64,000 nucleotides of DNA, taken from Paratrimastix pyriformis. Lineage: Eukaryota > Preaxostyla > Paratrimastigidae. The stretch spans positions 181,501-245,500 of the forward strand of contig JAPMOS010000007.1 of assembly GCA_027972325.1 (NCBI GenBank), given 5' to 3'. The translations under genes and the position numbers were made by a program. The notes below the pieces were generated by a model, which saw only the letters and a list, made by a program, of their open reading frames with translations, searched no databases and had not been told where the DNA came from. Positions 1-64,000 of the stretch are shown in pieces; position 1 is the first letter of the stretch; each line of letters opens with the position of its first letter.

Positions 1-3000
1 CGACTCGCTGGGCATCTCCTCCATGTCGCGCTTCTTCCGGGGGCTGGCCATGACCGGGGCCTGGTCGTGCTTCGACGAGTTCAACCGGATCGACGTCGAG
101 GTGCTGTCGGTCATCGCCCAGCAGATCGGCCAGATCCAGAACGCCGTCATCGCGGGCCTCAAGGAGTTCCTCTTCGAGGAGGAGAAGATCACCCTGGTGC
201 CCACCCTGGCCATCTTCATCACCATGAACCCCGGCTACGCGGGCCGCACCGAGCTGCCCGACAACCTCAAGGCCCTCTTCCGCCCCGTGGCCTGCATGGT
301 GCCCGACTACGCGCTGATCGCCCAGATCCGGCTGTTCTCCTTCGGGTTCAGCAAGGGCAGCGAGCTGGCCCAGAAGATGGTGGCCACCTTCAAGCTCTCC
401 TCCGAGCAGCTCTCCTCGCAGACCCACTACGACTTCGGCATGCGGGCCGTCAACACGGTCATCTCGGCCGCGGGCAACCTCAAGCGGGACTTCCCCGACG
501 TCGAGGAGAACCTGCTCCTGCTGCGGGCCCTCCGCGACACCAACGTGCCCAAGTTCCTCGCCGACGACATCCCCCTCTTCAACGGTCCGGTGCCCCTGCC
601 CCCCCCACCCACCCACCTACCTGGCCCCCCCCTCAGGCAGGCAGTCTCCGGTGCGCCCTGGCCCCCCCGCTGCCCGATGCCGGACAGCACTCATCTGACC
701 CGTTCGGTTTTTGTGACTGTCTGTGTGGCTGTGTCTCTGTGTCTGTGGGGGTGGGCGCGGCGGCAGGTATCATCTCGGATCTGTTCCCGGGCGTGTCGCC
801 GATGAAGGTCGACTACGGGGCGCTGCGGGTGTCGCTGGTGGACACCATCGTCAGCGCGGGGCTGCAGCCGCGGGAGCCCTTCCTGGAGAAGTGCACGCAG
901 CTCTTCGAGACGACCATCCTGCGGCACGGCCTGATGCTGGTCGGGCCCACGGGGGGCGGCAAGACCCGCTGCATCCGCTCGCTGGCCGAGGCCATGCGGC
1001 GCCTGAAGGGGCGCGGGGTGGCCGGCTTCGAGGACGTCAAGCTGCACACGATGAACCCCAAATCCATCGGGCCCTTCGACCTGTACGGGGTCCTCGACGC
1101 CACCACCAACGAGTGGCGCAACGGCATCCTCACCCTGATCATGCGCAAGTGCCGGCGCGACACCAGCCCCACCAAGCACTGGGTCATCTTCGACGGGCCC
1201 GTCGACGCCCGCTGGGTGGAGGACATGAACACCGTGCTGGACGACAGCAAGAAGCTGTGCCTGTCCTCGGGCGAGGTGCTGCCCCTGACGCCCTACATGA
1301 ACATGATGTTCGAGGTGGAGGACCTCAAGCAGGCCTCCCCGGCCACCGTCTCCCGGTGCGGCATGGTCTACCTCGAGCCCGCCACCACCATCGGCCTGCC
1401 CGCCCGGGTGGCCACCTGGATGTGCCACCCCAAGCGGCGGGCCACCCTGGGGGCCCAGTACGACCGGTGCCAGGAGCTCTTCGACGCCCTCTTCGTGCCG
1501 GCCATCGAGTTCGTCCAGCGGCGCAACATCGAGATCGTGCCCACGGTCGACAGCAACCTGGCCGGGTCCATGTTCAACCTGCTCGAGTGCATGCTGGGGC
1601 CCTACGAGCCCGGCCTGGTCGAGGAGGGCACCGCACAGCAGGAGGCCCAGGAGGCCGCCGAGGCGGCCAAGGTCCCCTTGCCCACGCCCTGCCCCCCTGC
1701 CCCCATCACCTTTCCTGGGACATGCCCTCCGTCTCGCCTCGCCTGTGTCCCGATCATCATTCATCATCGGCATCCTCGGCGGCATCACCCCTGACCCCCA
1801 CCACCCCTGTCACCCCTGTCACCCCCCACCCCCAGATTGAGGAGGTGGCGGCCTCGCTGGACGCGTTCTTCATCTTCAGCATGATCTGGTCGGTCGGGGC
1901 CACGGCCAACCGCGAGGGCCGCAAGCTCTTCGACCAGTTCTTCCGCAAGCTCATCCTCACCCAGGTCCCTGGCCCATGCCCAGCAGCCATCGCCATCAGC
2001 ATCACACAGTCGTCATCATCAATCGTCATCATCAATCGTCGTCATCCAATCATCCCCATCGTCATCATCCCCATCGTCATCCCCATCGTCATCACCCAGG
2101 TTCCCAACCTGCGGACGGAGCTGCCCGCCAAGGACCTGCTGTACGACTACCAGTACCTGGCCAAGGAGCACCAGTGGGTCTCCTGGTACTCGACCATCCC
2201 CGAGTTCTCCATCAAGTCCGCTCAGCCCCCAGCCGCACATCCCCCGCCACCCTCCCACACAGGCCGCCACCCGCCCATGCGCTGAACCGAGCCGGGGCAG
2301 GCGTGGGGGCCGAGCCTCTCGGACATCATCCCCGTCCCCCCGTTCGTCCCCCATCCTCACATCCCCATCTCCGGGCTGTGGTGGCTGTGGCGTCGTGGGG
2401 GATGGGGTGGCAGGCGTGGGGCGAGCTTCTCGGACATCATCGTGCCCACCCGGGACAACATCCGGAACACCTTCATCCTGGACACCCTCCTGCGCCGGGA
2501 CAAGCACGTGCTGGGGGTGGGGCCCACGGGCACGGGCAAGTCGGTGGCCATCACCCAGCACCTGCTCAACGGGATGCCGGCCAACTACATGCCCATCATG
2601 ATGAACTTCTCCGCCCAGACGGGCGCCGTGGCCACGCAGCAGTTCCTCGACAGCAAGATGGAGAAGATCGTCAACAAGGTCAACGGGCCCCCGTCGGGCT
2701 TCAAGTTCATCGTCTTCGTGGACGACCTCAACATGCCCCAGCCCGAGCAGTGGGGCGCCCAGCCGCCCATCGAGCTGGTGCGGCAGTTCGTCGACCACGG
2801 CGGGTGGTACATCAAGAAGGACGCCAAGAAAATCCCCTTCCACGAGATCCGCTACACCCAGATCGCCGCCGCCATGGGGCCCCCCGGGGGCGGCCGGCAC
2901 CCGGTCACCAACCGGCTGCTGCGGCACTTCAACCACCTGGCCTTCACCGAGATGGAGGACGAGTCCTACGAGCGCATCTTCAGCACCATCCTGGGCAACT

Positions 3001-6000
3001 TCCTCCAGGCGCAGGACTTCCCGGCCCCCGTGCAGCAGGTCACCCAGGCCGTCACCCAGGCCACCATCGCCGTCTTCGCGGCCGTCTGCAAGGAGCTCCT
3101 GCCCACCCCGAAGAAGTCCCACTACACCTTCAACATGCGCGACATCAGCAAGGTCTTCCAGGGGCTGCTCTCGGCCCACAAGCCGGCCACCGACCAGCCG
3201 GCCGACCTGGTGCGGCTGTGGATCCACGAGACCAGCCGGGTCTTCCGGGACCGGCTGATCGACACGGCCGACCGGGAGTGGTTCGACCGGCTCATCCGCA
3301 AGCAGCTCCGCACCCACTTCAACACGACCCTCGAGGAGGTCCACTACACGGACGACGTCATGTACGGCAACCTGACCAGCCCCGCCCAGGCCGAGAACAA
3401 GCCCTACGTGCTGATGGCCGACACGGACAAGCTCAGCCGCAACCTGGACGAGGCCCTCGAGGAGCTGCGCGAGCTGCAGTCGGGCCCCCGGATGGACCTG
3501 GTCATGTTCCGCACGGCCGTGCAGCACCTGGCCCGCATCAGCCGGGTCATCCGGCAGCCCTCGGGCAACGCGCTCCTGCTGGGGGTGGGCGGGTCGGGCC
3601 GGCAGTCGCTGACCCGGCTGGCCACCCAGATGGCCGAGTTCGACCTGCTGACGGTCGAGATCAAGAAGGGCTTCTCCAAGCGCGACTGGCACACCCGCAT
3701 CAAGGAGATCCTGCGCCTCTGCGGGGGCATCGGCTCGGGGGGCGTCCCGGCCAAGCCGCAGGTGTTCCTGTTCACCGACGGGCAGATCATCATGGAGTCC
3801 TTCCTGGAGGACATCAACAGCATCCTGAACAGCGGCGAGGTGCCCAACATCTTCGACCCCGAGAAGGACATCCCCGCCATCTACGCCGACATGCGGCCCC
3901 GCGTCCAGAAGGAGGGCCTCCAGCCGACCCCCTTCAACATGTGGTCGGCCTTCGTGCGCACCGTCCGGGCCACCATCCGGGTGGTCCTCTGCATGTCGCC
4001 CGGCAGCGAGACCTTCCGCGGCCGCCTGCGGAACTTCCCCTCGCTGGTCAACTGCTGCACCATCGACTGGTTCGACCCCTGGCCCGACGAGGCCCTGTAC
4101 GCCGTCGCCCGGAGCAAACTCGAGGCCACCGAACTCGAGCTGCCCCACCCCGCCGACGGTCCGACCCCCACCCCTCGCACCCAACACCCACACCCGCGCG
4201 CCCACACGTCCCCATTCACCCCCTCTTTGCCCCCATTCACCACCTCTTTGCCCCATCACCCACCCCACCCGCACCCCACAGCGCTCCAGCAAATCCCGAC
4301 GGAGGCCGAGGTGCGCAAGGCCGTGATTGCCATGTGTGTGCACGTGCACCAGTCGGTGGAGGGGGCCACGGGCCGCTACCTGGCCCAGATGCGGCGCCAC
4401 AACGCGGTGACGCCGATGTCCTACCTGGAGCTGCTGTCCCTCTTCAAGAGCCTGCTGGCCAAGCGGCGGGCCGAGCTCAAGCTGAAGAAGGACCGGCTGA
4501 CGATGGGGCTCGACTGCCTGGCCAGCGCCCAGGAGCGGGCCGAGTCGCTGGAGGCCGACCTGAAGGAGCTCATGCCCCAGCTGGAGAAGAGCCAGCGCGA
4601 GGTCGAGGAGACCGCCATCCGCATCCAGCACGACCAGGAGGAGGCCTCCAAGACCCGCGAGGTGGTCGCCGCCGACGAGGCCGCCGCCTCGGCCAAGCAG
4701 CGCGAGGTGCAGGACTACAGCGACGGGGTGGCCCGCGACCTGGCCCTGGCCCTGCCCCTGGTGGAGAACGCCAAGCGGGCCCTCAACAGCCTCTCGCCCA
4801 AGGACTTCTCCGAGGTGGCCCGGTACGCCCGCTACACGCCCGCCGTGCTGAAGGTCCTCTCGGCCCTCTGCGTGCTGATGCAGGTCGACCCGAAGAAGGT
4901 CGAGGACCCCAACACCCACAAGCGGGTCAACGACTACACCGAGCCCGCCCGCAAGCTGCTCAACGACACCTCCCTCGTCAGCCAGCTGCTGACCTTCTCC
5001 GAGAAGGCCAACGACCCCGGCTTCGGGCCCGTCGCCAAGGCCATCGAGAACGCCTACATGACCGACGAGGGTCCGCCCCACCCGCACACCGCTCAGCACA
5101 CCGCTCAGCACACCGCTCAGCACACCGCTCAGCACACCGCACCCCAAGCATTTGTCGGTGGGGTGACATGGCGTGACATGCCGGGCTCCCCGTCCTCATC
5201 ACCCCCCCCCCCCCCCCCCCCCCGCTCTTCGGGCTATGGTGCAGATTTCACCCCTGAGGCCGTCTCGAACGCCTCGAAGGCCTGCTCGTCGATCTGCATG
5301 TTCATCCGGGCCATCGTCACCTACCACAACGAGTCCATCAAGGTCCGGCCCCGGATCATCGCCAAGGAGCAGGCCGAGCGCCAGCTGGACGAGGTCAACC
5401 GGTCGCTGGCCGAGAAGCGCAAGATGCTGCAGGACGTCAGCGAGGCCCTGGCCCGGCTGCAGGCCGACCTGGCGGCCCTGGACCAGCGCAAGAAGGAGCT
5501 CGAGTTCAAGGTCAGCGACAGCAAGACCAAGCTCGACCGGGCCAACCGGCTCATGTCGGGCCTGGGCGGCGAGCGGGACCGGTGGCGCAAGACCCTGCGC
5601 GAGATCGAGGAGGCCGAGATCAACGTGGTGGGCGACGTCTGCGTGGCGGCGGGGGGGGTGTGCTACCTGGGGGTCTTCACGACCCAGTTCCGGGAGGAGC
5701 TCCTCAAGGAGTGGCGCGACAAACTCCTCGAGCTGCGGCTGCCCCACAGCGCGGGCTGCTCGGTGGGGACCACCCTCAACGACCCCAACCGGGTGCGGGC
5801 CTGGTGCCTCGACGGGCTGCCCTCGGACAACCTCTCGGTCGAGAACGCCCTCATCCTGCACAACGCCCGCCGGTGGCCGCTGATGATCGACCCCCAGGGG
5901 CAGGCCAACAAGTGGATCCGGCGCACCGAGAAGGACAAGCTCGACATTGTCAAGCCCTCCGACCCCAACCTGGTCCGCCCCACCACCCACCCCACCCCGC

Positions 6001-9000
6001 GCACCCCACCACCACCACCACCACCCATGGGGCCACCAGCACCCACCCGCACCCCCTTTTCCTGCCTCCCCACCGCACCATCCTCACGTCGACATCTCTC
6101 CCCCCGGGCAGATCCGTGTGCTGGAGACGGCCATCCGGTTCGGGCGGCCGGTGCTGCTGGAGTCGCTGGGCGAGGAGATCGACCCGGTGCTGGAGCCCAT
6201 CCTGCTCCGGCAGACGTTCACCGTCAAGGGGGCCGAGATGATCAAGCTGGGCGGCAACACCATCAGCTGGTCCAACGAGTTCCGCTTCTACATGACCACC
6301 AAGCTGCCCAACCCGCGCTACAGCCCCGAGACCACGGTCAAGGTGACCCTGCTCAACTTCACGGTCACCCCGGAGGGCCTCTCGGAGCAGCTGCTGGCGA
6401 CGGTGGTGGTCAAGGAGCGCAGCGACCTCGAGGACTCCAAGAACTCGCTGATGGTCAACAGCGCCAAGATGCGGGCCGAGCTGAAGGGGCTCGAGGACCA
6501 GGTGCTCGAGCTGCTGGCCGACAAGACCCGCAACCCGCTCGAGTCGGAGCAGGTCATCGTCACCCTGGCCGAGTCCAAGAAGAAGAGCCAGGAAATCGAG
6601 GTCCAGGTGCGCGAGGCCGAGGAGACCGAGCGGGCCATCGACGAGGCCCGGAACACCTACCGGCCCATGGCCACCCGGGGTTCGATCCTGTTCTTCTGCG
6701 TCTCGGCCCTGGCCAACATCGACCCCATGTACCAGTACAGCCTGCAGTGGTTCCTGGGGCTCTACGATCAGGCCATCGACATGGCCGACCCCAGCCCCCA
6801 GTTCGAGGTGCGCCTGCAGAACCTGATCAACAAGTTCACCTACCTGCTCTACCAGAACGTCTGCCGGTCGCTCTTCGTGCGGGACAAGTTGATGTACAGC
6901 CTGCTGATGTGCATCCGAATCATGGAGAAGGAGGGCCGCATCGACCCGCTCGAGTACCGCTTCCTGATCGCGGGCGGGGCCCTGGCCGAGGAGAAGCCCA
7001 AGCCCGCCCAGGACTGGCTCACCAGCAAGATGTGGACCGAGTTCCAGGCCCTGGCCAAGCTGCCCGCCTTCGTGGGCATCGACGAGGCCATCGCCCGCAG
7101 CCCCACCCAGTGGAAGCAGTCCGCACCCACGCCACCCATGCGCCTCGCCCCGCCCTGCCCCCCCGTCCCACCCTCCCGCGCCCCCGCCCTCCCAATTTGT
7201 AGCGGGCTCGTCTCATCGGGTTGGAATGTGTGGTGGGGACGGCCTCTGGGCGCCTGTCTCCTTTTGATTCGGGGGGTGGGGCAGGCTCTTCGACTCGTCG
7301 AGTGCCCACAAGGACCCCCTGCCGAGCGGCTTCGGGGAGCGGCTGAACGACTTCCAGCGGCTGCTGGTGCTGCGCTGCCTGCGGCCGGACAAGGTCACCG
7401 AGGGCGTGCAGCTGTTCATCATGGCCAACTTCGGCGAGCAGTATGTCAAGCCGCCGGGCTTCGACCTGGCCCTCTCCTACAAGGACTCGCGCCCCGACCG
7501 GCCGCTGATCTTCGTCATCTCGCCCGGCACCAACCCCGTCAAGGACTGGGAGGCCTTCGCGGCCGACATGCGCATGTCCAACAAGAAGCGCAGCCTCTCG
7601 CTGGGCCAGGGCCAGGAGAAGTACGCCGAGAAGTTCATCGACGAGGCCGTGGTCTCGGGCTACTGGGTGCTCCTCGAGAACTGCCACCTGTTCAAGTCCT
7701 GGATGCCCCAGCTCGAGAGCAAGGTCGAGGCCTTCAAGCCCGAGCAGCTCCACCGCGACTTCCGCCTCTGGCTCACAAGGTCCGCCACACGGACGCCCTG
7801 CCCCCGCGCCCTGCCCTGCCCCGCGTTCACCCCGCCCCGCGCCCCCCGTTTCCGGACACGGGGCTCACCGGTGCGCCTCTCCTCTCTCTCCTCTGCGGGG
7901 TGTCGGGGGCGGTGCAGCCAACCGTCTGCGGACTTCCCGGTGACGGTGCTGCAGGGCGGCATCAAGATGACCAACGAGCCGCCCAAGGGGCTCCAGTCCA
8001 ACCTGCTCCGCACGTACGGCTCGTTCGACCCGCAGTACCTGCAGCAGTGCAGCAAGCCGGCCGTCTGGCGGAAGCTGCTCTGGGCGACGGCCTTCTTCCA
8101 CGCCGTCATCCAGGAGCGGCGCAAGTTCGGCGCGCTGGGGTGGTGCATCCGGTACGAGTTCACCCAGGACGACTTCCGGGTGTGCACCCGTCAGCTGCAG
8201 CTCTTCCTGGACACCTACGAGGAGGTCCCCTACAAGGTGCTCAAGGTGCTCTTCGGCGAGATCAACTACGGGGGCCGCGTCACGGACCACCTCGACCGGC
8301 GCACCCTGATGACGCTGCTCGACGGGTTCCTGTGCCCCGAGGTGCTCCAGGAGGGGTACCCCTTCTCGCCCTCGGGCAAGTACCAGACCATCGAGGCCGA
8401 CGACAAGAACAGCTACCTGTCCTACGTCAACGGGTTCGACCTCAACGCCCAGCCGGAGGTCTTCGGGCTGCACGAGAACGCCGACATCACCTACGCCCAG
8501 CAGGAGACCCAGGTCCTCTTCAACAGCCTGCTGGCCCTGCAGCCCCGGGGCGGCTCCAAGGGGGCCCTGACCGAGGAGGAGGCCGTCAAGCAGACCTGTC
8601 AGACCATCCAGGAGAAGGTCATGCCGCCCTTCGACCTCGACCTGGTCGTCCGCATGTACCCCACCACCTACGAGGAGTCCATGAACACAGTCCTCACCCA
8701 GGTCCGCCCCCGCCCCCCGAAAACCCGCCCCTGCTCCCCCGCCGCCCCCATGTCGCCCCGCCGCCCCCCTGTCTCTCTCTGCCCCATGCCCATATGTCCC
8801 TGTCCGGCCCGGTGGCCCCCCCTTGACACGATCTCGTATGGCGGCATGACGGTGACTTGGGGGGGCCGGCGGGCAGGAGGTGATCCGGTACAACCGGCTG
8901 CTGGGCTCGGTGCACAAGGCCACCCGGGACCTGGTCAAGGCCATGGCCGGCATCGTGGTCATGTCCAAGGACCTCGAGGAGATCTCCCGCTCCTCTACAA

Positions 9001-9127
9001 CAACCAGGTCCCCGCACCCGCCCTGCCCGCCCCGCCCTGCCCCCGCCATGCCCCCCCCCTCACGCCCTGCACTGCCCCGGCCCTTCCTCGCTGCCCTCCC
9101 GGCCTCATGTCTGATTTGCTGGCCACG

Positions 9128-9165
<38 letters not shown>

Positions 9166-9873
9166 TTCCCTTCCCTTCCCTCCAGATCCCGACGCTGTGG
9201 GACGGGAGCGGGTCGAACCCGCTGGGGTACCCGTCGATGAAGAACCTGACGGCCTGGGTGGCGGACCTTGTGCGGCGGTGCCAGTTCATCGACGGCTGGA
9301 TCCGGGGCGGCATCCCGGCCACCTTCTGGATCTCGGGGTTCTTCTTCCCGCAGGCCTTCCTCACCGGCACCCTGCAGAACTACGCCCGCAAGTACCACAA
9401 GGCCATCGACACGATCAGCTTCGGCTGCGCCGTCGTGCCCACCCCACAGGACCAGATCGCCCAGAAGCCCCCCGTCCGTCACACAGCCCCCACACCCACA
9501 GCCCCCACGCCCACAGCCCCCACACCCACAGCCCCCACACCCACAGCCCCCACACCCACAGCCCCCACACCCACGGCCCCCACACCCACAGCCCTCCGCC
9601 CCGCCTCGCCCTGCCCCGCCTTTTCTGGAGGCCGTGGCTCATCGTCATCTTCGTGTGTCCTGGGTGTGGGGTGCGGGTGCGGCTGGGGGGCGGGCGGCCG
9701 GGCTGGGCTGGGCGGGGCAGGACGGGTGCTACATCTACGGGCTGTACGCCGAGGGTGCCCGGTGGGACATGGAGCAGATGTCCCTGGCCGAGTCGCGCCC
9801 TAAGGAGCTCTTCACCGTCGTCCCGGTCATCCACCTCATCCCCACCCAGAACCGGGTCGCCCCCACTTCGGTC

Positions 9874-9909
<36 letters not shown>

Positions 9910-10414
9910 CACGCCCAGCATCGCCCCCAACCGCCCCGTCATCAGTCATCATCAAGCAGCATCACCAGCAGCAGCATCACCAGCAGCAGCATCACCAGCA
10001 TCATCATCACCAGCATCATCATCACCAGCATCATCATCACCAGCATCATCACCAGCATCACTGCCATCATGCGTCTGCTCACCCGCTGCTCTGCTCTTCC
10101 CGGCACGGGACAGGGCGTCTACTCGTGCCCCATCTTCAAGACCCTCACCCGGGCGGGCGTCCTCTCGACCACGGGCCACTCCACCAACTACGGTCTGCCG
10201 GCCCATCCCTGCCCCTGCCTGGCCCAGCCCGCCCCCGCCTGTGCGTCCGTCCCCCCCTGTGGAGCCTGCTGGCCGGCACGCGTTCACCCTCTGTGGCCGC
10301 CCTCTGTGGGGCCGGCTGTGGGGCACAGTGATCTCGCTGGACATCCCCTCCAAGCAGGCCGCCGCCCACTGGGTCAAGCGGGGCGTGGCCTTCTTCTGCG
10401 CCCTCAACTACTAA
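1..10414 (+). CDS. Dynein heavy chain, axonemal type (3' part; 5' end outside window)
   Basis: Motor subunit of an axonemal dynein arm; ATP hydrolysis in the AAA ring drives sliding along the neighbouring microtubule doublet. Exons placed by frame: 1-584, 767-1671, 1836-1964, 2100-2215, 2414-4158, 4282-5070, 5245-5972, 6112-7118, 7285-7779, 7918-8701, 8877-9007, 9186-9473, 9721-9870, 10114-10192, 10329-10414 (stop TAA). Visible domains: end of AAA1 ([17 protein letters not shown] block near 50-90), AAA2 P-loop GPTGGGKT (about 943-966), AAA3 P-loop GPTGTGKS (about 2520-2543), AAA4 GVGGSGRQS (about 3590-3616), stalk coiled coils with microtubule-binding region (4282-5650), AAA5, AAA6 and a C-terminal block ending [15 protein letters not shown]. 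All 14 introns begin GTC. The subfamily (inner or outer arm) was not resolved. Exon 8877-9007 is one base out of frame near its 3' end. Confidence 0.95.
1985..2098. repeat. Intronic CATCAT-type repeat in the dynein gene
   Basis: Imperfect CATCATCATC/CCATCGT units fill the intron 1965-2099. Confidence 0.8.
5085..5140. repeat. Intronic 12-bp repeat (CACACCGCTCAG)n
   Basis: Between four and five perfect copies in the dynein intron 5071-5244, followed by a poly-C run. Confidence 0.9.
9480..9594. repeat. Intronic 15-bp repeat (CACACCCACAGCCCC)n
   Basis: About seven copies with single-base variants in the dynein intron 9474-9720. Confidence 0.9.
9877..10068. repeat. Intronic (CA)n and (CAGCATCATCAT)n repeats
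   Basis: About 15 CA dinucleotides at 9877-9906, then an imperfect AGCATCATCATC array from 9953, in the dynein intron 9871-10113. Confidence 0.85.
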
Positions 10415-14942: not shown

Positions 14943-17050
14943 CTATTTCGGGGGGTCGTTGCCACCGGCCGGCTCAAAGTGCCTCAATAGGGCGCGCACG
15001 TGCAAAAAGTTGTTCCGCAGCAGTCCGTCGTTCCCTGCCCAGGGTGTGTGTGGTGTGTGTGGTGTGTGTGTGTGTGTGTGGGGGGGATGGGAGGTATGAG
15101 GATGGGCCCAGGACCGGGGAGGGAGCCGCACGGGGGCGGGGGCGGTGGATGGGGGACCGACCGCTCGCCTGGGCCTCCTGGAGGACGGCCGCCAGGGCGG
15201 CCCGGTACTGTGCGGGGTGCTTGGTCTGCATCCGCTCCAGCAGGAAGGCCGCCGCGTAGCTGTGGCGGCGCGACAGCCGGCCCCCACCCACCCCCACCCG
15301 GAGGCACAGAGGGGCGTCAGCATCGAGGGCATGGGCAGGGGGGGGCAGGCAGGCAGGCAAGGCTGTGGGCGTGCTGCCGGGGCCGCCGCGGACCAAGCGA
15401 GGGCCGGCTCGGAGCCCTCCAGGAGGCGCCGCCAGAAGGCCAGCCCGCCGAGCCCCTCGAAGACCGCCTCCACCTGGCTGCACTGGGCCATCAGCAGCAG
15501 CAGCACCGCCCGGGCGCCCTGCGGGCAGGCGGCCGGGTTGAGGTGGGCCAGCAGGTAGACAAGCACCGGGGTCGAGACAAGGCCCACGAAGCCCGCCGGC
15601 ACGGCCAGGGCGCCCCCCAGGAAGAGGTGCGCGGGGCTGTCCTGCCCGCTCCGGAAGGGGCACCGGGTCGGGGCTGCGCGGCGGGAGGAGGGCAGTGGGG
15701 GGGGGGGGGGGTGAAGACGGGATCGGTTGGGATCGGTTGGGATCGGTTGGGATCGGTTGGGATCGGTTGGGATCGGTTGGGATCGGTTGGGATCGGTTGG
15801 GATCGGTTGGGATCGGTTGGGATCGGTTGGGTTGGGCTGGGGCTGGGCTGGGGCTGGGCTGGGGCTGGGCTGGGGGCTGGGCTGGGGCTGGGCTGGGGCT
15901 GGGCTGGGGCTGGGCTGGGGCTGGGCTGGGGGCTGGGCTGGGGGCTGGGCTGGGGGCTGGGGGCTGGGGTTGGGTGTGGATGTGGGTGGGCTGGGCGGAC
16001 TGGCGGTGTAGCCGACGGTCTCCAAGATCAGGTCCACGCACCGCTCCAGGTTGGCCTGCCCCAGAGAGTCACGCCCCCCCAAGGAAACCACACAGGCCCA
16101 TCAGCACCCAAACTCAAATGAAATGGGGATGCGGGCACTGGGCGGGCGGGCAGTGTGGTGGTGGGGCCCGGACCTGGTTGCGCTCGCGTGCCCGGACCAG
16201 GACCGAGAGGGACTCGTTCAGGATGCCCACAAGCTCCTCGCACATGCGCCCGTCCCCGGGCACCAGGATCTGACCAGCCACAGGGCCCCCCAGCCACACG
16301 CAGGGCGATGGGCGATGGGCGATGGGCGATGGGCGATGGGCGATGGGCGATGGGCGATGGGCGATGGGCGATGGGCGATGGGCGATGGGTGATGGGTGAT
16401 GGGTGATGGGTGATGGGTGATGGGTGATGGGTGATGGGTGATGGGTGATGGGTGATGGGCGAGGGAATACGGATGGGCGACGGTGGGGGTTGCGAGCGGG
16501 ACGCGGCTGCATGGGTGGGTGGGTGGGGTGGACGGATAAGGGCGGACGGACCCTCATGCGGGCCTGGATGAGGCGCCGCTGGAGGAGGCTGAGCAGGACC
16601 GCCCGCACGGCCGGCTCGGGGTGGGCCGCCAGGCGCTCCTCCAACGAGGCACACAGCTCGCCCAGCCGCTCGCCGCAGGCGCCCGGCATGGGGCACGACA
16701 GGGCCGCCGCGCGGAAGGGCGACCAGGACGAGGAGGCGGCCGAGGGCTGGCTCGAGGCAGACGTGGCCGTCCCGCCCGCCCCGGCCGAGGCGGGGGCCAG
16801 TGGGGCCGCCGCCGCCGCCGCCCCGCCCGCACCGGCGGCCGGCTGGGCCGAGGCGGGGGCGGCCGGGGGCGGCGAGGGCGCCCCCATGGCCCGGCACTCG
16901 TCGGCCACGACCCGCAGATGGTACAGCAGCAGCTCGGCCCACCGGGCGGGCGCCTCGAAGGGCCGCGGGCCCGCCGTCCGCCAGGGGGAGCCGCCCGCGG
17001 TTCCCGGGGCAGCCGCGGGTCCCGCGGGGCCCTCGGCGCTGTCCGAGGAG

Positions 17051-17081: not shown

Positions 17082-20000
17082 TGCTGGCGGCCGCCGAGCG
17101 GGGCGAGGGCGGCACAGAGGAGGGCGGGGCGGCCGGGTCGAGGGAGACCCCCAGCAGGCCCTCCAGGCACCGCTGCAGGGTGGCCAGGGGCCCACCGCCC
17201 AGGCCCGTCGGCTGGCCGGCCGGGGACGTCATCATGGGCACCCCGCTGGGCGGCGGGGGCGAGGCCGAGGCGGCCACCTCGGAGATGGCCCGCTGCAGCG
17301 AGACTTCAACCTCAGCGGGCATCTGCCCCCGCCCCAGCAGCAGCAGCGACCCGGCGCGGCGGTGGCGGTGAGGTGGGCGAGAGAGCGCAGGGAGGGGGCG
17401 GGGTGGGTGGCGAGCGCGCAGGGAGGGGCGGGGTGGTCGGGCCGGGGGGGGGGGGCGGCGGACCTTGCAGTGGCCCTGGGCGAGGTGGAGGAAGGCGTAG
17501 AGGAAGGCCACCATGAGGCTCTTGTCCAGCCGCGAGCTGATGGCCGTCAGGGTCGGGTCCCGCTTCAGCTGCCCAGCCCCCGCAGCCCCCACCACAGCCA
17601 CAGCCACAGCCACAGCCACAGCCACAGCCACAGCCACAGCCCAACTCGGTTCAATTTGGGGTTACCGTAGGGAGACAGGGTGACGGAGGGCGATGGGGGT
17701 GACAGGGCACAGGACGAGGGGCCTGGGGCATGAGGTGGGCATGAGGGTAGGTGGGGGGGGGGGGGGGACCTGCTCGAGGAACATGAACTCGACGAAGTCC
17801 TCCACGAACCGCTCGGGGGGCACGCAGAAGATCTGCCACAGGTGGTGCGCCCCCTGGAAGCGCCGCAGCAGCTCGAACAGCAGCCGGCCCTGGTCCACGT
17901 CCACCTGCACTCGTCACACACACACACAAACACACACACCCAGCGCCCAGACAGCACCCCACAGCCCAGGCGGCCCATCCACACAAACCCACCAGCGCTC
18001 ACATCAGATCACGGGCCGGACCTCCCGGCCGGCCACCCCCCAAAGCCGTTCCCTTCACCACACCCACCCACCCCCTTATCCCCGCGATCGCGATGCGGGC
18101 CAGGGCCAGGGCCAGGGCGGGGGACGGGAGCAGGGGCAGGGGACGGGCCTGCTTCTTCTCTGCGACCCTGGCGGGGCATGGGGGCATGGGGGTATGGGGG
18201 CATGGGGTATGGGGCATGGGGCATGGGGGCATGGGACGGGCCTGCTTCTTCTCTGCGACCCTTGCGAGGACGTAGTCGCAGACGAGGCAGTAGAGGCTGC
18301 TCCGGCCGGCGCAGTGTGGGCTCAGCCGCCACATGGCCAGCACCGTCTGGATGCCGCCCGCCTCCTCGAGCCGCCCCAGGTTCAGCCGCGGGCTCAGGGG
18401 CGCCCCGGCCGGGTAGTCGTACCTGCGGCAGCGCGGAGGGGGGGAGGCGGAGGTGACGACCAGTATCAGACAGTCCCGCGGCCAAGCAAAGGGCCAGATC
18501 GTCACGGCACGGCACGGCACGGCACGGCACGGGGGGCATGGGGGGGGGGGGGGGGGGGCAATGGGGGGCGTGCAGGCCGCGGACAGGACGTTGGTGAGGA
18601 TGGTGCAGAGGGTTGCCCGCACCACCGAGGTGGGGCCCGCCACGGGGGCCGGAGCCAGGCCCAGCCGCCACCACAGCTCGGCCCACAGGCGCACGTCGAA
18701 GACGGCCAGCCTGCCCGCCCCGCAAAGAGGGGGGTCGGGGGTGGTCGCGCAGGTTGCGGTGTGAGGGGTGGGCCATGGAGGGGGGCGTGGGCAAGGGACG
18801 GGTGAGGGCCGGGGGCGGACCGGGCGCGGATGAGGTGGCCCGAGGGGTGGGCGCAGAAGAGCAGGGCCGCCTGGAAGAGGGCCGCCCACACGCGCACGTC
18901 GGGCTCGGCGCGCTGCAGCGTCCGCTGGGCACACAGGGCCGCCGTGTGGAGCAGCATCTCCTCAACGGCCCCCGTCAGCGCTAGGGGCCGGCCAGGCGCC
19001 GCACAGGGGGGAGAGCGATGGAGTGATGGAGGAGGAGGATGGAGGAGGAGGATATGGGATGAACGGCGGGGCGGACGGTGGGGGCGGGGGCGGGGGCGGG
19101 GGCGGGGGCGGGGGCGGGGGCGGGGCGGGGGCGTCTGCGGACCGGAGTCGCGCTGCTCGTGGAGCATGGACGCGTGCACGGCCAGGTTGACCAGCAGCTG
19201 GTACGGATACGCCCTGCCCACACAGCCCCCCACCATCACCATCGCCATCAGCAGGGGCAGCCGGAGGCGCGTGCGGGCGGCGGGGGGCTGACGTTCCGCC
19301 AGGGGGCAGGGTCGGGTTGGGGAGCGGCCCCCTTGTGCCCTGCTGTGGGCCTGAGGGGGCCTGAGGGGTGTGGTGGAACAGCTGCCGGGTGGGGGTGCGG
19401 ACCGGTCCTCGGGTGCCGACCGGTCGAGCCACTCCCAGAGGAAGGGCACGAAGGCCAGGCCCGTCCGGGGGGCCCACCGGGCCAGCAGCTGGGCCACGGG
19501 GCCCGCCTCGAAGTAGGGCTCGTCCGCCGCCCCGCCGCCCCCGGCTGGCCCACGGCGGTCCCGCTCCGCGCGGGGGCCGAGGCCGGGGCGGGCGGGCCCA
19601 GGGGCAGGGCCGCCGAGGTGGTCGAGGGCGACCGGGTCATGCCGCCGCCCCCTGGAAGGCCCACCGGGGCCGCCGGGGCCGCCGGGGCGGGCGGCTCGCT
19701 GAGGAAGAGGTCCGGCTGGTGGGCACACACGTCCATCAGGATTTTCAGCAGAACCTGCGCTAACCCACAGCCCCCCGCCCGCCAGCCCGCCAGCCCAGCC
19801 GGGGCACCCGTACCCGCGTACCATCGGTGAGCCCACCGCAGCAGCCGACCGGGAGCCCACCACAGCCGCTGGGGCGGGCATATCGTGGGTGGGCATATCG
19901 TGGGTGGGCATATCGTGGGTGGGCATATCGTGGGTGGGCATATCGTGGGTGGGCATATCGTGGGTGGGCATATCGTGGGTGGGCATATCGTGGGTGGGCA

Positions 20001-38400: not shown

Positions 38401-40725
38401 TTACCGCGACGAAGCCGACGAAGCCGACGAAGCCGATCGGCTCCGGTGCTTGTGGTGGTGGTGGCTGTGGTGGCTGTGGTGGTGGCCATGATCGCGACTG
38501 CTGCTGTGGTGGTGGTGGCTGCTGGGGCTGTGGTGGTGCCGGCTCCGTTTGGTCTCACGATCGGAGGTGCCTGATGGCACCGGAGTTGCTGACGGGGGAG
38601 GCGGCGGGGCGGGTTGTGTGGGTCGCCCCGGCTGGGAAGGCTCGGGGATCATCTCGTACCTGCGCCGCCAGGAAGGGGACGGCCAGAGGGCGGTGAGCTC
38701 CCGTGGAGTGTCAACACAGCCCATTCACAACCCCCACACACGTGAGAGGGACTTCCGACAGACCCCGCAGTGCCCCATTCCATGGACTTGATGACCAGGT
38801 TACTCGGGACGGGGGGGTGGCCGCCTCGGCCCCCACCACCACGTGGCGGGCCCCCCGGCCTCGGGGCGGGCCACCTCGGCCTCGGCCTAAGGAAGACGCA
38901 GACGCAAGCAGAGCGGGGGGCGAGGGGGCGGTTCAGTTGCCGGTCGAAGGTCATCACCCCGTGAGCTCAGCGGGGGGTTGGGCCGGGTGGCAGGTGGCGG
39001 GTGGGGTGTGCTGCAGACCCGGGGCCGCACCGCCTCTGTGGATGCGCTGCTGGTTGCGGAACTGCATGAACTTGTTCTTGGCGACGGACTGGCTGAAGTC
39101 GACGTGGATGCGGTGGTCGTCGATGAGGGCGTTGTCCATCTTGGCGTAGGCGGCCTCGCAGGACTCCTTCGTGTCGAACTCGATGAAGGCGTACCGGAGG
39201 GACTCCCCCGTGTAGTGGTCCCGGATGACCTCGCAGCTACCCCCCCGACCCGGACCCGACCCGAAGGGGCGCGAGGAAGATGGCGAATGAGAACCAGGCG
39301 AGAAGGGGATCATCATCATCATCATCACCCAGTCATCACCCCAGTCATCACCCCAGTCATCACCCCAGTCATCCCCAGGCGAGAAGGGGATCATCATCAC
39401 CCAGTCATCACCCAGTCATCACCCGCCAATCATATCATGTCCTGGGGGACCTGATGATCTTGCCGAACTGGCTGAAGATGCGCATCAGGTCGGCCTCGGG
39501 GGTGGTGGCGTTGAGGCGGCACACGAAGAGCACATTCTCGGGGGGCCGGGCCTCGGCCTCGGGCAGGTCGCCCAGCATCTCCAGCACCACCGCGTTGGCC
39601 CGGGCCTCCCGGGCGGCGATCCGCTCGTCCTGATCGGCCACCGTCTCGTTGGGGTCCAGGGCAGCCACCTCCTCGTAGTCCTCGAACCGGTCCCCCTGGG
39701 GGTGGGAGGCCAAGGGACCCGATCAGATGGGACGGCAAGGAGGCTGCTGCCACTGGAAGTGGCGTGGTAGCAGTGGGGCGTGGTAGCAGTGGGGCGTGGT
39801 AGCAGTGGGGCGTGGTAGCAACGGGGCGTGGTAGCAACGGGGCGTGGTAGCAACGGGGCGTGGTAGCAACGGGGCGTGGTGGCAACGGGGCGTGGTGGCA
39901 ACGGGGCGTGGTGGCGACGGGGCGTGGCGACGGGGCGTGGCGACAGACGAGGAGCCTCTCGATGCGGGCCATCTCGGGGACGGGCGACGTGGCGGGCACC
40001 ACCAGGCCGGGCGGGTCGGCGAAGGGGTCGGCCAGGATGATGGTGTGGTAGATCCTGCGGGTGGATGGGGGATGGGTTCATCAGGGACGGCGAAGTGGGG
40101 CCCGGCCGGCGCACCCGCTGCTCCCCCCGTGGGCACCGGCAACAACAGACCGAACGTTCTGGTAAGGGCGGCCCTTTTCATCGGCCCAAACAGAGCTAAT
40201 CTGGCGGACAATATCCATGCCCTCGGTGACACGCCCAAAGACGGTCAGCTGTTCGTCCAGGGATGGGATCCGCGGGGCGGCAGTAATGATGAACTGCGAC
40301 CCGTTCTGATGGCGGGTACCCTGAGGCTTTGCCATGGAAACAGTGCCTTCCGTGTCGTGACGAAGATGAGCGTGGATTTCATCCTCGAAAAATCGCTGAG
40401 CAGGCCCATTCAAAATCCTACACAACCCACGCCGCCCCCATGGTTGTCATTTTATGCATTCAGAAAAGAGCAGACCCATAGATCGACTCACCACCGAGAC
40501 CGGTCCCGGATGGGTCACCAGTTTGGACGATGTAATTGTGTTGAACATTGTGAAAGAGGCACTGGTTGTAATAATGAATCTTACACAGTTTCAGGAAATT
40601 CTTGCAAGCCAGTGGGCAATCATCACAAAACAAATCTATTACGATGTCCCCCTGGCTTGTTTCGATAAGAACACTGAGAGGAAGAGAACAGATCAGAAAA
40701 CCCGAAAAAGATAAATAAACCTCAT
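38401..40725 (-). CDS. PPIL4: PPIL4-type cyclophilin with RRM (spliceosome-associated)
   Basis: A peptidyl-prolyl isomerase that associates with the spliceosome. Placed exons: 40725-40721 (only ATGAG), 40673-40476, 40417-40151, 40054-39949, 39695-39451, 39236-39019, then at least two more to the stop at 38401. Residues 1-160 are the cyclophilin domain ([68 protein letters not shown]). A linker with [11 protein letters not shown] leads into an RRM ([36 protein letters not shown]). The tail is His/Ser/Arg-rich. Domain order and linker motifs match animal PPIL4 closely. Donors are GTTTAT, GTCTGC, GTCTGT, GTCTGT, GTCCCC and GTCTGC. Confidence 0.93.
39300..39425. repeat. Intronic CAT/CCAGTCAT repeat
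   Basis: Imperfect units (CATCATCAT and CACCCCAGTCAT) fill most of the PPIL4 intron 39450-39237. Confidence 0.8.
39755..39945. repeat. Intronic 14-bp minisatellite (GGCGTGGTAGCAAC-like)
   Basis: About 12 copies of a 14-bp unit with graded variants (AGTG, AACG, GGTGGCAACG) in the PPIL4 intron 39948-39696. The gradient of variants shows stepwise expansion. Confidence 0.88.
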
Positions 40726-47706: not shown

Positions 47707-50700
47707 CGACGAGGGGTCGCCGGCCCCGCCACCCCTGCCCCAGCGTGGCCGGGCCGGGACCCGCTCGGCCTCGCCGCCCACGCCCGAGCGGCGCCTGGGG
47801 CTGGGCCGGATGCAGTCCATGTCGGTCTCCCCCATGGGGCGGCCCCCCGTGCCCCCGCCCCCCCGGGCCGACGTGGCCTTCTGGATCGACGGCCCCCAGC
47901 GGGCCTGTTCGCCCTCCAAGGGGGGCAGCCCCACCGCCCGGGGCCTGCCCGTCCCGCCGCCGCCCCAGCCCCGGCTGGCCGTGGTGGGGGTGGCCGCCGC
48001 CCAGGGGGAGGCCGACGCGGACGGGGACATCGAGTCGGTCGACGAGAGCGCCGCCGAGGAGGCCGCCGAGGAGGCCCTGCCGGCCCCCCTGCGGGCCGAG
48101 TGCCGCGCCATGCGCCTCGAGGACCACGCCGCCGAGGCCATCCGCGACTACGAGGTCCGCCAGGCACCCCCCCGATCCACCCCAATCTCCCGCCCCTCAC
48201 CAACACGGGGCCCCCGGCGCCTCGTACTCATGACCCGATCCCCCGTCCCATCCGCAGCGGCAGGTGGCCCTCGTGCAGGCGCTCTTCAGGGGCCGCCAGG
48301 CGCGCAAGTGGTACGGGACCCTCTGTCTGCAATCACTGTCCCCCCCCCCCCCCCCCCCCCCCCCCAGTCGCGAGCCGCTCTGCCGCCCGTGCCTGCCCTC
48401 CGCCCATCCTTCTCATTGGCTGCCCTCCGCCCATCCTTCTCATTGGCTGCCCTCGGCCCATCCTTCTCATTGGCTGCCCTCGGCCCATCCTTCTCATTGG
48501 CTGCCCTCCGCCCATCCTTCTCATTGGCTCCCCTCCGCCCATCCTTCTCCCCTATGCGGCCCCTCACCGGTGGCGGATCCCCGGCGGGCGGGCCCCCCAA
48601 CAGGCAAGCGGCGCGACCCGGTGCGGGAGCTTGTGGCCACGGAGCGGCTCTACGTGGAGCGCCTCGAGGGCCTCGTCCAGGTCGGCCCCCCAGCCAACCC
48701 TCGCGCCCGGCCCACGTCCCTGACATCACTGAAAATCACGGGGCCTTGTGTGGTGGCCTGCAGTCGGTGCTGGACCCGCTCGAGAAGGCCGACCGTGAGG
48801 GGACCCCGCTGCTGTCCCGGGCCCAGATGAGCACCTTCGCCGCGGCCAACCCCAGGGTCCGCCTCGCCCATCCTCCCCCTCGCCCTCCCCCCTCGGCGGG
48901 CGGCCCATGGCCGCTCATCGTCGCCTCCCCTGCAGGCGCTGCTGCGGGTCAACGGGCCGCTGCGGGACCGGCTCGAGGAGCGGCTGGCCCACTGGCACGC
49001 CGACCAGCCCATCGGCGACATCTTCGTGGACATGGCCCGCCACCCCCCCCCCCCCGCCCCCCCCCCCGCCACCCGACCCCCAACTGCCACCTCTTCCCCC
49101 ACCAGCCGCCCTCCTGCTGCTCCATACGCATGACCATCGCACCACCACCGCACCACCACCACCGCACCCGGGCAGGCGCCCCGGCTGAGCTGCTACGGGC
49201 CGTACATCGTCAACCTGACCGCCTGCCGGGAGGCCAGTGCAGGCAAAGGCCGAGTCGGCCCCTTCGCGGCCTTCCTCGGTCCCTCCGCCCCCCTGCCCCC
49301 GACACTCTGCCTGCCCCCCCTCTCGCCCACTCACCGCCTCGCGTCCGTCCCGTGTGCTTGACCTGGGCGTTCCGTTCCCCTCCCTGGGGGGTGGGGCTGC
49401 AGACGGCCCGGGAGGACCCCCGGCTGACCTCTTTGGGGGTCATCACGACCCTCTCCGCCCCGGCCACCCGGATCGGTCAGTACAAGCTCTTCCTGGAGGT
49501 CCGCCAGCCCCCCCGCCAGCCGCCCCGCCGCCTCCACCCCACCACCACCCGCACCCCTCGGCGCAACCTCACTCCCTTCACCCCTTTCCATCGCCGCGCC
49601 GACCGGGGGGAAACAGAGGGTGCTGAAGCACACCCCGGCCACCCACCCGGACCACCCGCTGCTGGGCAAGGCCATCCAGCTCCTTATGGCCGTCGGAGAG
49701 GAGGTCTGCCCCCATTAAGTGAGGGCCCGGGATGTTCACCCAGGCGTCAGGATGCTTCCATCCTATACAAACTCAACCAGCTCGATTAGCTCAGTCGGTA
49801 GAGCGTTGCTCTAATAAGGCAACGGTCGCAGGTTCGATCCCTGCATCGAGCACATTTTTTTATTTGTGTGCAGATCGAGTGCAGCTTCCGTGCGGCGGAG
49901 CAGCTGGCCAAGCTGGCCCAGCTCAAGGAGAAGATCGCCGACATGCCCCCAGGGATGGTTCGCCTTGGCCTCCCCTCCCCCTCCCCTCCCCTTCCCCCCC
50001 GTCCATCGTCCCTCCCCCCATCCCGCGCTCTCCTCCCCCAGCAACTGGCCCAGCCTGGGCGGCAGCTGCTGTACGAGGGCCCCGTGCAGGTGCTCGAGGA
50101 CGCCCCGCCAAGCCCGGGGAGCTCCCTGTCGCCCCTGCTGGCCGCCTCGCCCGCCCCGGCCGACCTGTCGCCCCCGCTGGGCCTGAGCTCCCCCGTCATG
50201 GGCGCCGCCCAGCGGCCACCCCGCTCCGCCTCCCGCAAGCGCAGCGGCTCAACGTCCGTCCCCCCCCCCCCCCCCCCCCCCCCCCCTAGCCATACTGCCA
50301 TGCCACGCTCACGCCACACCACACCATCCCCATCCCGGTTCCTTGTGTGTTCATCCCACCCCCCACCCCCCACCCCCCACACACACACAGCAAGCGGCAG
50401 GGCCCGGTGATGCGGCTGTACCTGCTGACGGACCTGTGCCTGCTGTGCCGCTGGACCAAGTTCATGTTCGGCGGGGGCACCTTCCAGTTCGCACGGGCCT
50501 ACCCCTGCCCGCCCTGGTCTTCCCCGTCGCTACCGAGGGTCCGCCCCTCGTCTCCCTCCCCTCCCCTCGCCAATCACCCCCCCCCCCCCACCCCCCCCCG
50601 CCCATCACCACCCTCATGCATCGATGGATGGCGCGGGTGGCGGCGGCACGGGATGGTACAGACCTGCCCTACGGGGTGGAGCTGTGGGGCCCGGGCGGCA

Positions 50701-51858: not shown

Positions 51859-51895
51859 ACGCACACACACACACAGACTACACACACACACACAC

Positions 51896-51957
<62 letters not shown>

Positions 51958-54990: not shown

Positions 54991-55053
<63 letters not shown>

Positions 55054-57505: not shown

Positions 57506-57952
57506 TTATTCGGGCTGGGCGAAGGGGTTGGCGATTTCCTCGAAGCCGTCCACCGAGAAAATGGATGTTACGGCCACCCCACGGCACACGGTCAGGCCGA
57601 TCTGGCGGGTCGCCCCAGTGAGGAGATAGGGATCATTGGGGTCTACGTAGAAGGGATAAGCCTGATCGTAGACAGAACAAGGACGGACCTCGAAGATACT
57701 CAACGGCATTATCGAGGACCAGATTCACGATTGGGTCGAAGCCCTTAAGAACGCCGGCAACTGCCAGGAAAAGTATCAAAAGGTAGTGACAGTTCAAAGC
57801 ACGGCAGCCAGACCCTCGCGGCCCCCCTGGAATTTCACGCGAATAACCTTCTCAAGATACTTATTCAGCTCGATAGCTGATTCTTTCCTCGGGCGGCCCT
57901 GGAATCCACCCTGGGGTTGCTCGGCCGATGGTGATGCGGGCGCAGTGCTCAT
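57506..57952 (-). CDS. LSM7: LSm7, U6 snRNA-associated Sm-like protein
   Basis: A subunit of the LSm2-8 ring on U6 snRNA and the LSm1-7 ring of mRNA decay. Exons 57952-57814, 57760-57689 and 57642-57506 give 115 residues, close to the usual LSM7 length. Sm1 motif: LEKVIRVKFQGGREVAGVLKG, followed by FDPIVNLVLDNAVEYL. Sm2 motif: GLTVCRGVAVTSI, with the LSM7-typical RDPNDPYLLTGATRQ between. It ends EEIANPFAQPE, like other LSM7 proteins. Donors are GTCTGG and GTCCGT. Its ATG lies 74 bp from the RPC7 ATG, head to head. Confidence 0.95.
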
Positions 57953-58026
57953 TGTGCCTCACTCGCGAAACAGAAGCTCTCACCTCGAGGGATCACTCTC
58001 ACTCCCACCCCAACAGCAACAACACA
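57953..58026. promoter_or_regulatory. Very short bidirectional promoter LSM7 / RPC7
   Basis: Only 74 bp separate the two start codons, so both promoters and 5' UTRs must be compact or overlap. Confidence 0.6.
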
Positions 58027-62310: not shown

Positions 62311-62518
62311 TCCCCCCGTAGTTCCTTCCGTCCCTCTCTGTCGTCCGGCGCCTGTTTGCCCAAAAGGCAGGCAAGCAATGAAGTTAACTGCAGCGTGCAG
62401 TCCTTGTTGTTTCTCTCGAGCCTCTCCAGCCTGTTCCTGTTCCGTTCAGCGTTCAGCCGTTCCTTCCTTCCTTTCCGTCCGGTGGTGGGAAAAGAGTGCA
62501 AGCGATTCGTGGTCTGAT

Positions 62519-62548
<30 letters not shown>
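62311..62548. other. Intergenic, convergent 3' flanks
   Basis: Ends in an uninterrupted run of about 30 G at 62519-62548 next to the stop codon of the minus-strand gene. No gene. Confidence 0.6.
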
Positions 62549-62549
<1 letters not shown>

Positions 62550-63637
62550 CACCTTGGGAAGGCGAGCGGAGAGGAAAAATGCTGGGTGGCGGGGGCCGCA
62601 GCCGAGGGTTTGAAGACGATCGGGCGGATGGGCGGCTTGGGCGGCTCCTCGGCCTGTTTGGGACGGGAGGCCCCGGTCCCGGATGTGGCGAAGGAGGCCG
62701 GCGGCTTGTATTGAATGGGGCGGATCGGCTCGAGCGGTGGAGCCTGCGGGGACGGGGGCAGGAGCTGCGGCACCCGCTCCCTGGCCAGGGGCACCGCCTC
62801 CACCTCCCCCTCGGCCGCCGGGGGTAACCGGGGAGGGGAGGGCGTGTCGTCGTAAGAAGGCTGCCCATCGGCTAAAGGGGGGCCAGCCCGCTCGGGATCG
62901 GCGGCAAAGGCCTCGTCCGTACCCCCAGTCTCGCCCATGTCCACGTCCGTGCCCTCGGCCTCGGCCTCGGCCTCGTCGTCGGGCTGGTCGTCCAGCACCA
63001 CCACCAGTGCATCGCCCCGCCTGGCCGAGGCGGGGGCGCCCTGCCCCTGGTCGCCATCGGGACGCGACCGCTTCGCCTCGGTCGGAGCAAGCGAGGGCTG
63101 CGGGCTGCGGGTGCGCGGCGGTTGGGACTGGCGGGGCTGCTGCTGGTCGGTCCGCCGCTCGGGGGGGACGGGTGGAGCTGCCGGGAGTTGGGTCGACCGC
63201 TCGGATGGTGGCGGGGCTGCTGCCTTCGCCTGTTTGACAACATGGCTCAGGCTGATCACGACATCGCCGGCTGGCTTGGTCGGGGGGACGCCCGGGCCGG
63301 CGCTCCCGCCTGGGACGGCCACCGGTCGCGCACAGCACAAACATCGACCGGGCTGACTGAGTTGACGCTCGAGCTCGGACACTCGTCTGTCAATCTTGGA
63401 CAACGTGTCGATGGCCTGCTGAGCCATGGCCAGAGCCCGTGTTGCGATCTCATCGATCTGGAGACGCCCTTCCTGGGCGAACTTGGTGGCATTCTCCGAT
63501 TCAAGCTTCGCCTGAGGCAAAAGTTGTGACTTTTCGGTACAAATTTCCGCTCGACGGACCTCATGCGCTAACAGGACGGTCCCGAGAAGCAACTGATGGA
63601 GTTTGCCACTTTGGAGTTGGGCGGTAATTTCAGCCAT
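62549..63637 (-). CDS. Uncharacterised coiled-coil and proline-rich protein
   Basis: Intronless frame of 362 residues from the ATG at 63637. The first 95 residues are helical and charged (MAEITAQLQSGKLHQLLLG, AKLESENATKFAQEG, then a heptad-like AMAQQAIDTLSKIDRRVSEL), likely a coiled coil. A CLCC pair follows. The rest is Pro/Ala/Glu-rich with an acidic Ala/Glu repeat and two similar PIRPIxxKP motifs near the end. No family recognised. Just before the stop codon the sequence reads AAG followed by GTGACC and a poly-C run, so splicing to a further exon cannot be excluded. Confidence 0.6.
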
Positions 63638-64000
63638 GGCTGCCTGAATAAAGAGGTGAGAATTTGCAGCTCTTTTTAAGGGTGCAGACTTCTTCCGTCT
63701 GTTCAGTCATGGCTGAAGGCAGCCGACGTCGGGAGCGAGAGATAGTTAGCGTGTTCAACCTCAGCGGCATGCAGACTTGCAGACGGGCAGCTGCTTTTTG
63801 GATCGCTCTTGTGACAGTGGTAACTCCGCTTCTATCGTTCTTCGACCAAGAGGAAGAAAACGGAAACGTGCACACGAGATAAACGAACTGAAAAAGAGAG
63901 AAAAAAAGAAGGATAAATATATGAAAAGAAGGCCGTCAAAAAGTCGGAGAAAGCCTCCCCAAATTTAAGGATCACGCATCCAAACACTATACACTCAGAG
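63638..64000. promoter_or_regulatory. Upstream region of the coiled-coil gene
   Basis: AT-richer sequence, with an A-rich stretch at 63889-63945. A short plus-strand frame from an ATG at 63708 exists, but nothing supports it as a gene. Confidence 0.4.

Follow-up and report, generated by a model that had tools for sequence, protein, structure and literature searches.

The window analysed here is a stretch of 64,000 nucleotides from Paratrimastix pyriformis (GenBank assembly GCA_027972325.1, contig JAPMOS010000007.1, positions 181,501 to 245,500 of the forward strand). Nearly all of its predicted introns start with GTC in place of the usual GTA or GTG, mostly as part of an unusual 5' splice site (donor), GTCYGY (Y, pyrimidine; R, purine). 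The same donor was learned from DNA sampled across the genome, and all eight U1 small nuclear RNA (snRNA) loci found had a changed 5' end complementary to it. The 5' splice-site code thus appears to have been rewritten at U1 in this organism, a reading to which we give a probability of about 0.9. The U1–donor pairing rule, thought to be nearly fixed in eukaryotes, seems to be rewritten here.

Donor sites in the window and across the genome

The analysed assembly comprised 56.06 Mb in 495 contigs, with the window inside contig C463. G+C across the window was 60–80%. Twenty junctions were examined one by one, 18 in the window (14 in a dynein gene, two in PPIL4 and two in LSM7) and two in EF1A (locus L048, contig C461). 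All 20 introns started with GTC. A junction was called homology-locked when it was gap-free in an alignment to a homologue of solved protein structure, and 16 of the 20 qualified. These 16 donors all had C at +3 and G at +5, and 13 had the complete GTCYGY. At +4 they had C (10), T (5) or A (1), and at +6 C (9), T (5) or G (2). The four unlocked donors (GTCCCC, GTCCCT, GTCCGA and GTCCCC) were weaker at +5 or +6.

The dynein gene (1–10414, forward strand) was placed by frame. Its spliced protein was compared with solved dyneins using phmmer, and ten of the 14 junctions were gap-free. The donor was GTCCGC at J4 (2216..2413), J6 (5071..5244), J7 (5973..6111), J8 (7119..7284), J9 (7780..7917), J10 (8702..8876) and J13 (9871..10113), GTCCGG at J1 (585..766), GTCCGT at J12 (9474..9720) and GTCTGC at J14 (10193..10328). 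Homology left the other four undecided: J2 (1672..1835, GTCCCC) sits in an alignment gap, J3 (1965..2099, GTCCCT) adjoins a one-residue gap, J5 (4159..4281, GTCCGA) lies outside the displayed alignment, and J11 (9008..9185, GTCCCC) has a frame shift just upstream. At the 13 testable junctions (J11 was excluded for its frame shift), no GTRAG alternative that kept the frame and avoided stops was found within 30 bases. Other GTR alternatives were present at J4 (two) and J8 (two), each altering the protein length; J1 had no alternative. The earlier note on this DNA had claimed that all 14 dynein introns start with GTC. This was borne out for all 14 by frame and, for the ten locked junctions, by homology as well.

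The dynein frame shift lies at window positions 8877–9007 (forward strand), shortly before J11, and homology picks up in another frame afterwards. An assembly slip is one possible cause, homopolymers being common here; a broken gene is another.

PPIL4 and LSM7 are on the reverse strand. PPIL4 intron 1 (40418..40475, GTCTGC) and intron 2 (40055..40150, GTCTGT) were gap-free against solved PPIL4. LSM7 intron 1 (57761..57813, GTCTGG) and intron 2 (57643..57688, GTCCGT) were gap-free against solved LSm7. The PPIL4 exon 5' of intron 1 contains GGTGAGT, with its GT 16 bases upstream of the junction; frame and homology bypassed it and led to GTCTGC. Both EF1A introns started with GTC and were gap-free across their junctions. 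A WW-domain gene on another contig (L026) had one GTCCGT donor, placed by frame alone. As a side observation, the EF1A protein lacks 12 consecutive residues that the vertebrate protein has, which hints at the organism's position. This insertion marks opisthokonts.

Donors were also learned from a genome sample of twenty 10-kb regions on 20 contigs, one of them C463 far from the window. The 17 regions free of Ns (G+C 0.54 to 0.73) were kept for training and counts, and three with Ns (L036, L039 and L042) were excluded. A hidden Markov model (HMM) with states for codons, introns and intergenic DNA was trained by expectation-maximisation on both strands. It was seeded with dynein codon usage only, and AG acceptors were fixed. 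A neutral GT start and a canonical GTRAGT start reached the same donor, GTCYGY, with 226 and 241 expected donors, respectively. After the two starts, +3 was C at 0.81 and 0.82, +4 was C at 0.51 in both and T at 0.28 and 0.29, +5 was G at 0.64 and 0.66, and +6 was C at 0.49 and T at 0.29 in both. A uniform six-position start, in which GT was not assumed, gave G 0.69, T 0.65, C 0.74, C/T 0.81, G 0.63 and C/T 0.78. Starts from wrong dinucleotides (GC, GA, GG, CT, TG, CA, AG and AT) had lower likelihoods than GT at equal iterations, AT being the nearest. The AT, GA, CT and GC starts drifted to GTC.G and GG did so partly, whereas TG, CA and AG stayed put.

With the learned model, 158 donors were called in the sample at a posterior above 0.7, in 16 of the 17 regions. 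They included 139 GT, 130 GTC and 100 GTCYGY donors, and none of the 158 was GTRAG or GTATG. In the window, 73 donors were called at the same threshold, 68 with GT and 67 with GTC. Among the non-GT window calls, five in all, no fewer than two (683 and 2314) were false, as they lie inside dynein introns, and the window decoding missed two of the 14 dynein donors.

Since these counts rely on the learned letters, the decoding was repeated with GT alone. This donor-blind decoding lets in more false sites because it knows only GT; in the sample it gave C at +3 in 80 of 113 donors, CYGY in 46 and GTRAG in three. In the window, the corresponding counts were 42, 26 and zero of 53. As a baseline, 31.6% of all 16,909 GTs in the sampled DNA were followed by C at +3 and 3.6% by CYGY. 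Even decoding with a canonical prior gave C at +3 in 60 of 98 sample donors.

The earlier note had described the donor as GTCYGY in nearly every gene, with C at +3, a pyrimidine at +4 and G kept at +5. The locked junctions and the HMM both confirmed this description. One result that it said would refute it, GTC donors limited to this contig, was not seen: 130 of the 158 sample donors, across contigs, started with GTC. The donor shift is therefore not limited to the contig of the window. At the level of predicted introns, these results confirmed the GTC donor as real and genome-wide.

U1 genes and their pairing with the donor

An Rfam RF00003 search that scored the best 41 of 992 first-look candidates found eight U1 loci on eight contigs. 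A DNA search using one U1 copy returned the same eight loci and no others. All eight aligned over model positions 1–166, with 50.8–60.2 bits and E values of 5.6e-10 to 1.1e-12. Each had AUACAGACCUUG in place of AUACUUACCUG, the usual start in the Rfam consensus, and all shared an identical 13-base 5' end, ATACAGACCTTGC. Positions 5–6 were changed from UU to AG in all of them, and the ACUUACC letters, which are usual in U1 rather than defining, were found in none of the eight. A CCCATAA element, putatively a snRNA-type promoter, was located 59–60 bases upstream of each locus. The loci also contained a GAUCA stem-loop I and a AAUGUUUGG stretch resembling an Sm site, features that may bear on binding of U1-70K, U1A and Sm proteins. 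Positions 5–6 of U1 are usually two pseudouridines; with AG in their place, this U1 cannot have them.

The genome sample included N-free regions elsewhere on five of the eight contigs with U1 genes. GTC accounted for 12 of 13 (L029), 5 of 6 (L030), 3 of 3 (L034), 13 of 13 (L038) and 4 of 4 (L040) of their GT donors.

Four U6 loci were found, and all four keep AUACAGAGA with ACAGAGA. The earlier note had inferred a change in U1, in U6 or in both. The U1 part was supported by the UU-to-AG change in all eight loci, and the U6 part was not. A similar CCCATAA..TTCC-type stretch was observed upstream of the four U6 loci (L001–L012 together with the U1 loci), a U5 locus (L013) and a U2 locus (L021).

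The U1 start AUACAGACCU is complementary to the donor AG|GUCUGU. In this register the pairs are −1 G:C9, +1 G:C8, +2 U:A7, +3 C:G6, +4 U:A5, +5 G:C4 and +6 U:A3. U1 can pair with the donors at −1 to +3 and at +5, and at +4 and +6 only where the donor base is U. The duplex from −1 to +3 (GGUC/GACC) contains three G–C pairs and one A–U pair, followed by +5 G:C4. The mean number of pairs at +3 to +6 of the locked donors was 2.6 with ACAG and 1.4 with the canonical ACUU. For 110 donor-blind donors, the means were 2.02 and 1.38, whereas 16,078 other GTs gave 1.23 with ACAG and 1.60 with ACUU. In the donor-blind set, T was enriched opposite the A residues of U1 (55 of 220 at +4/+6 vs 27 of 220 at +7/+8, p = 0.0009).

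The first seven bases of U1, AUACAGA, are identical to AUACAGA in the U6 of the same genome, and the donor letters +2 to +6, UCUGU, are the reverse complement of ACAGA. The donor UCUGU therefore suits both RNAs in one register. In the published register, the methylated A of the U6 ACAGA box lies opposite donor +4 (PMC10581693). If U6 pairs in that published register, U1 and U6 read the same five donor letters in the same register. A review notes that N6-methyladenosine (m6A)–U pairs tend to be unfavourable (PMC11732430). U6 methylation, if present here, could thus favour C over U at +4.

We propose that U1 would select GTC donors by pairing, and that the four pairs at −1 to +3 would compensate for the A·C mismatches of donors with C at +4 or +6. 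U6, itself unchanged, would then take over the donor; its ACAGA box also complements letters +2 to +6, without a shift in register. The same review argues that pairing with U6, more than with U1, commits the donor (PMC11732430). On that argument, we infer that the donors shifted first, toward the best match with a constrained U6 box. U1 would have followed by two substitutions that made its first seven bases equal to U6 AUACAGA. The donor code has probably been reassigned as a whole: each functional U1 5' end would copy the U6 ACAGA box, and first U1, then U6, would read UCUGU in one shared register, U1 having no pseudouridines at positions 5 and 6 and possibly a methylated A5. We speculate that A5, placed in a U6-like UACAGA context, is methylated by a retained METTL16-type enzyme.

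Evidence against the proposal and rival explanations

Several observations weigh against a recoding at U1. The junctions and the U1 genes are known here from the genome sequence, through frame, homology and models, and the GT..AG ends of the placed introns were demanded beforehand rather than discovered. All eight U1 loci scored under the Rfam gathering cut-off of 69.5 bits, a curated database threshold and not a biological feature. The commonest base at +4 is C (58% of learned-model donors and 10 of 16 locked donors), which is unpaired with A5; the option of weak U1 pairing raised in the earlier note therefore keeps some weight at +4. Among bases at U1 positions 5–6, raw pair counts were higher for GG (4.89) and UG (4.41) than for AG (4.38), and the gains over other GTs were 0.63, 0.03 and 0.37, respectively. 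Purines were not depleted at +4/+6 in the donor-blind set (60 vs 65 of 220). GTCYGY was not avoided in predicted exons, with 94 observed and 82.8 expected. In the same 60,582 bases of predicted exon interior, GTCTGT occurred 16 times (6.5 expected) and GTRAGT twice (2.5 expected). The exon counts speak at most mildly against selection in exons, because the donor-blind gene models contain missed introns and control motifs deviated equally (e.g. GACYGY, 79 vs 98.9 expected).

The rival that survives best holds that U1 pairing is marginal, that U6, LUC7-type or SR-type factors define the introns, and that the U1 change is real but tolerated drift. It is compatible with a changed U1. Donors with C at +4, and often at +6, are unpaired with U1 at those positions, the letters from +3 to +6 fit U6 equally well, and LUC7 domains are present. 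The review that has U6 rather than U1 committing the site also mentions a red alga without U1 (PMC11732430). Drift does not account for an exact partner of +3 in all eight copies, and the number of donor pairs is highest with G at U1 position 6, whatever base stands at position 5. We regard this explanation as unlikely, though it deserves more weight than the others.

Alternatively, the altered U1 loci may be pseudogenes or variant copies, GTC being read through mismatches by a canonical U1 that is unassembled or was missed. The assembly is split into 495 contigs, scoring covered only the best candidates, and the eight loci fall below the gathering score. In addition, the diplonemid S. specki has both an altered and a canonical U1 (PMC12621601). 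Against this, a canonical copy should outscore the eight loci in RF00003, yet none surfaced among the 41 candidates scored. The promoter element is kept at a fixed distance in all eight altered copies, and ACUU makes fewer pairs with these donors than with the remaining GTs. A hidden canonical U1 is accordingly very improbable.

A further possibility, that GTC donors are an artefact of high GC with true GTRAGT junctions a few bases off, has hardly any probability left. The exact junction base does rest on frame and homology, and GTRAG appeared in 8 of 98 sample donors and 1 of 43 window donors under the canonical prior, besides the three sample donors of the donor-blind decoding. The 13 testable dynein junctions lack a frame-keeping GTRAG alternative within 30 bases, and training from a canonical start still converged on GTC. 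The EF1A, LSM7 and PPIL4 junctions are gap-free, PPIL4 passing over a nearby GGTGAGT, and the U1 change matches GTC independently. A mixture of two organisms in the assembly, with the U1 genes from the other one, would fit the GC range of 0.54 to 0.73 among the 17 regions but is just as improbable, as five U1-bearing contigs carry GTC introns in their sampled regions and the U1 letters suit the donor.

Other splicing components, known systems and meaning

The snRNA matches comprised nine full-length and one partial U2, seven U5 and four U6, and the major spliceosomal U2, U5 and U6 are thus present. One U2 locus that was read keeps GUGUAGUAUCUG, and one U5 locus that was read keeps CGCCUUUUACUA. 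A U12-like RNA (L047:1501-1675, reverse strand) scored 44.9 bits against a cut-off of 53 and has a well-kept AAUGAGUAAGGAAAA stretch. A minor spliceosome, or a minor intron class, may be present alongside. U12-type donors are RTATCCTT, and the learned donors were GTCYGY rather than this type.

One domain found belongs to the Methyltransf_10 family and carries an NPPF motif, as METTL16 does. The family also matches prokaryotes (5 of 14 control genomes), and the gene is called METTL16-type here on its family and NPPF motif only. A partial SNRNP27 domain was present, and LUC7 domains were located on two contigs. A single zf-U1 search, with three candidates scored, did not identify U1C. One zf-U1 match considered as U1C was rejected; its sequence looks like that of a protein with a zinc finger and a WW domain (L026).

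Some further features were observed in passing. A tRNA Ile-AAT (window 49780–49853, forward strand) lies apparently within an intron of what the earlier note called RhoGEF. A tRNA Ser-CGA (21220–21301, reverse strand) likewise seems to sit between exons of a larger gene. By eye, short tandem repeats seem to fill several introns or intergenic gaps (window 19877–20150, 23140–23240 and 15720–15970). Predicted proteins of the sampled region on the window's contig (L046, C463:10001-20000) have what we take to be a resemblance to nonribosomal peptide synthetase condensation and adenylation modules. Those of L027 and L040 have reverse-transcriptase-like and RNase-H-like motifs and may belong to retroelements.

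The system shares much with the usual U2-type GT-AG introns with GURAGU or GUAUGU donors: GT-AG ends, a preference for G at −1 and +5, a full-length Rfam U1, a canonical U6, and canonical U2 and U5 where read. It differs in the U1 5' end, AUACAGACC and not AUACUUACC, and in the donor, with C at +3 and Y at +4. In Saccharomycotina, donors switched from A to U at +4, and the switches were linked to METTL16 (Parker et al., eLife 2023, PMC10581693). The likeness is a lineage-wide change of a donor letter within GT-AG introns. In that study, however, an invariant ACUUACC stood in the U1 candidates from 227 of 230 yeasts and from 9 of 10 outgroups, whereas here U1 has changed and a METTL16-type domain with NPPF is present. 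Parker et al. suggested that U1 might compensate if its position 5 changed from pseudouridine to adenosine (PMC10581693). Fritillaria borealis also departs genome-wide from the usual donor. Its introns are non-GT/AG, its U1 5' end is strictly kept, and the changes are in U2AF and m6A (NAR 2026, PMC13326754); in the present organism the GT-AG termini are retained and the alteration is in U1 itself. S. specki resembles this organism in having a U1 gene with an altered, C-rich 5' end, one such copy alongside the canonical one, and the consulted part of that report describes no donor recoding (RNA 2025, PMC12621601). Compensating U1 mutations made in the laboratory, engineered for single sites (PMC11732430), follow the same logic of a changed U1 5' end matching a changed donor; here the change would be natural and genome-wide. 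Giardia U1 has ACUUAC (PMC3510501), as does the Guillardia nucleomorph U1, and the motif is kept in Bigelowiella too (PMC6461891).

A comparable recoding of U1 and donor was not reported in titles and abstract openings among the open-access matches listed; a genome paper may have noted it. The strings GTCYGY, GUCYGY, GTCCGY, AUACAGACC and ACAGACCUUG had no match in the open-access literature, and GTCYGT matched eight papers there, which deal with infections of wild boar and pigs or with the viruses of these animals. As far as these searches reach, the state found here is undescribed in that literature.

Few RNA contacts in eukaryotes are as conserved as the pairing of U1 with the donor. In the yeast and Fritillaria studies, the U1 5' end was kept even though donors had changed (PMC10581693, PMC13326754). 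If complete, a natural recoding of two letters would indicate that this pairing can move, and that U1 positions 5–6, a pair of pseudouridines in other organisms, can change along with the donor. P. pyriformis would offer a natural test of whether U6 or U1 drives donor evolution. Gene finders based on GTRAGT may also mispredict genes in this lineage.

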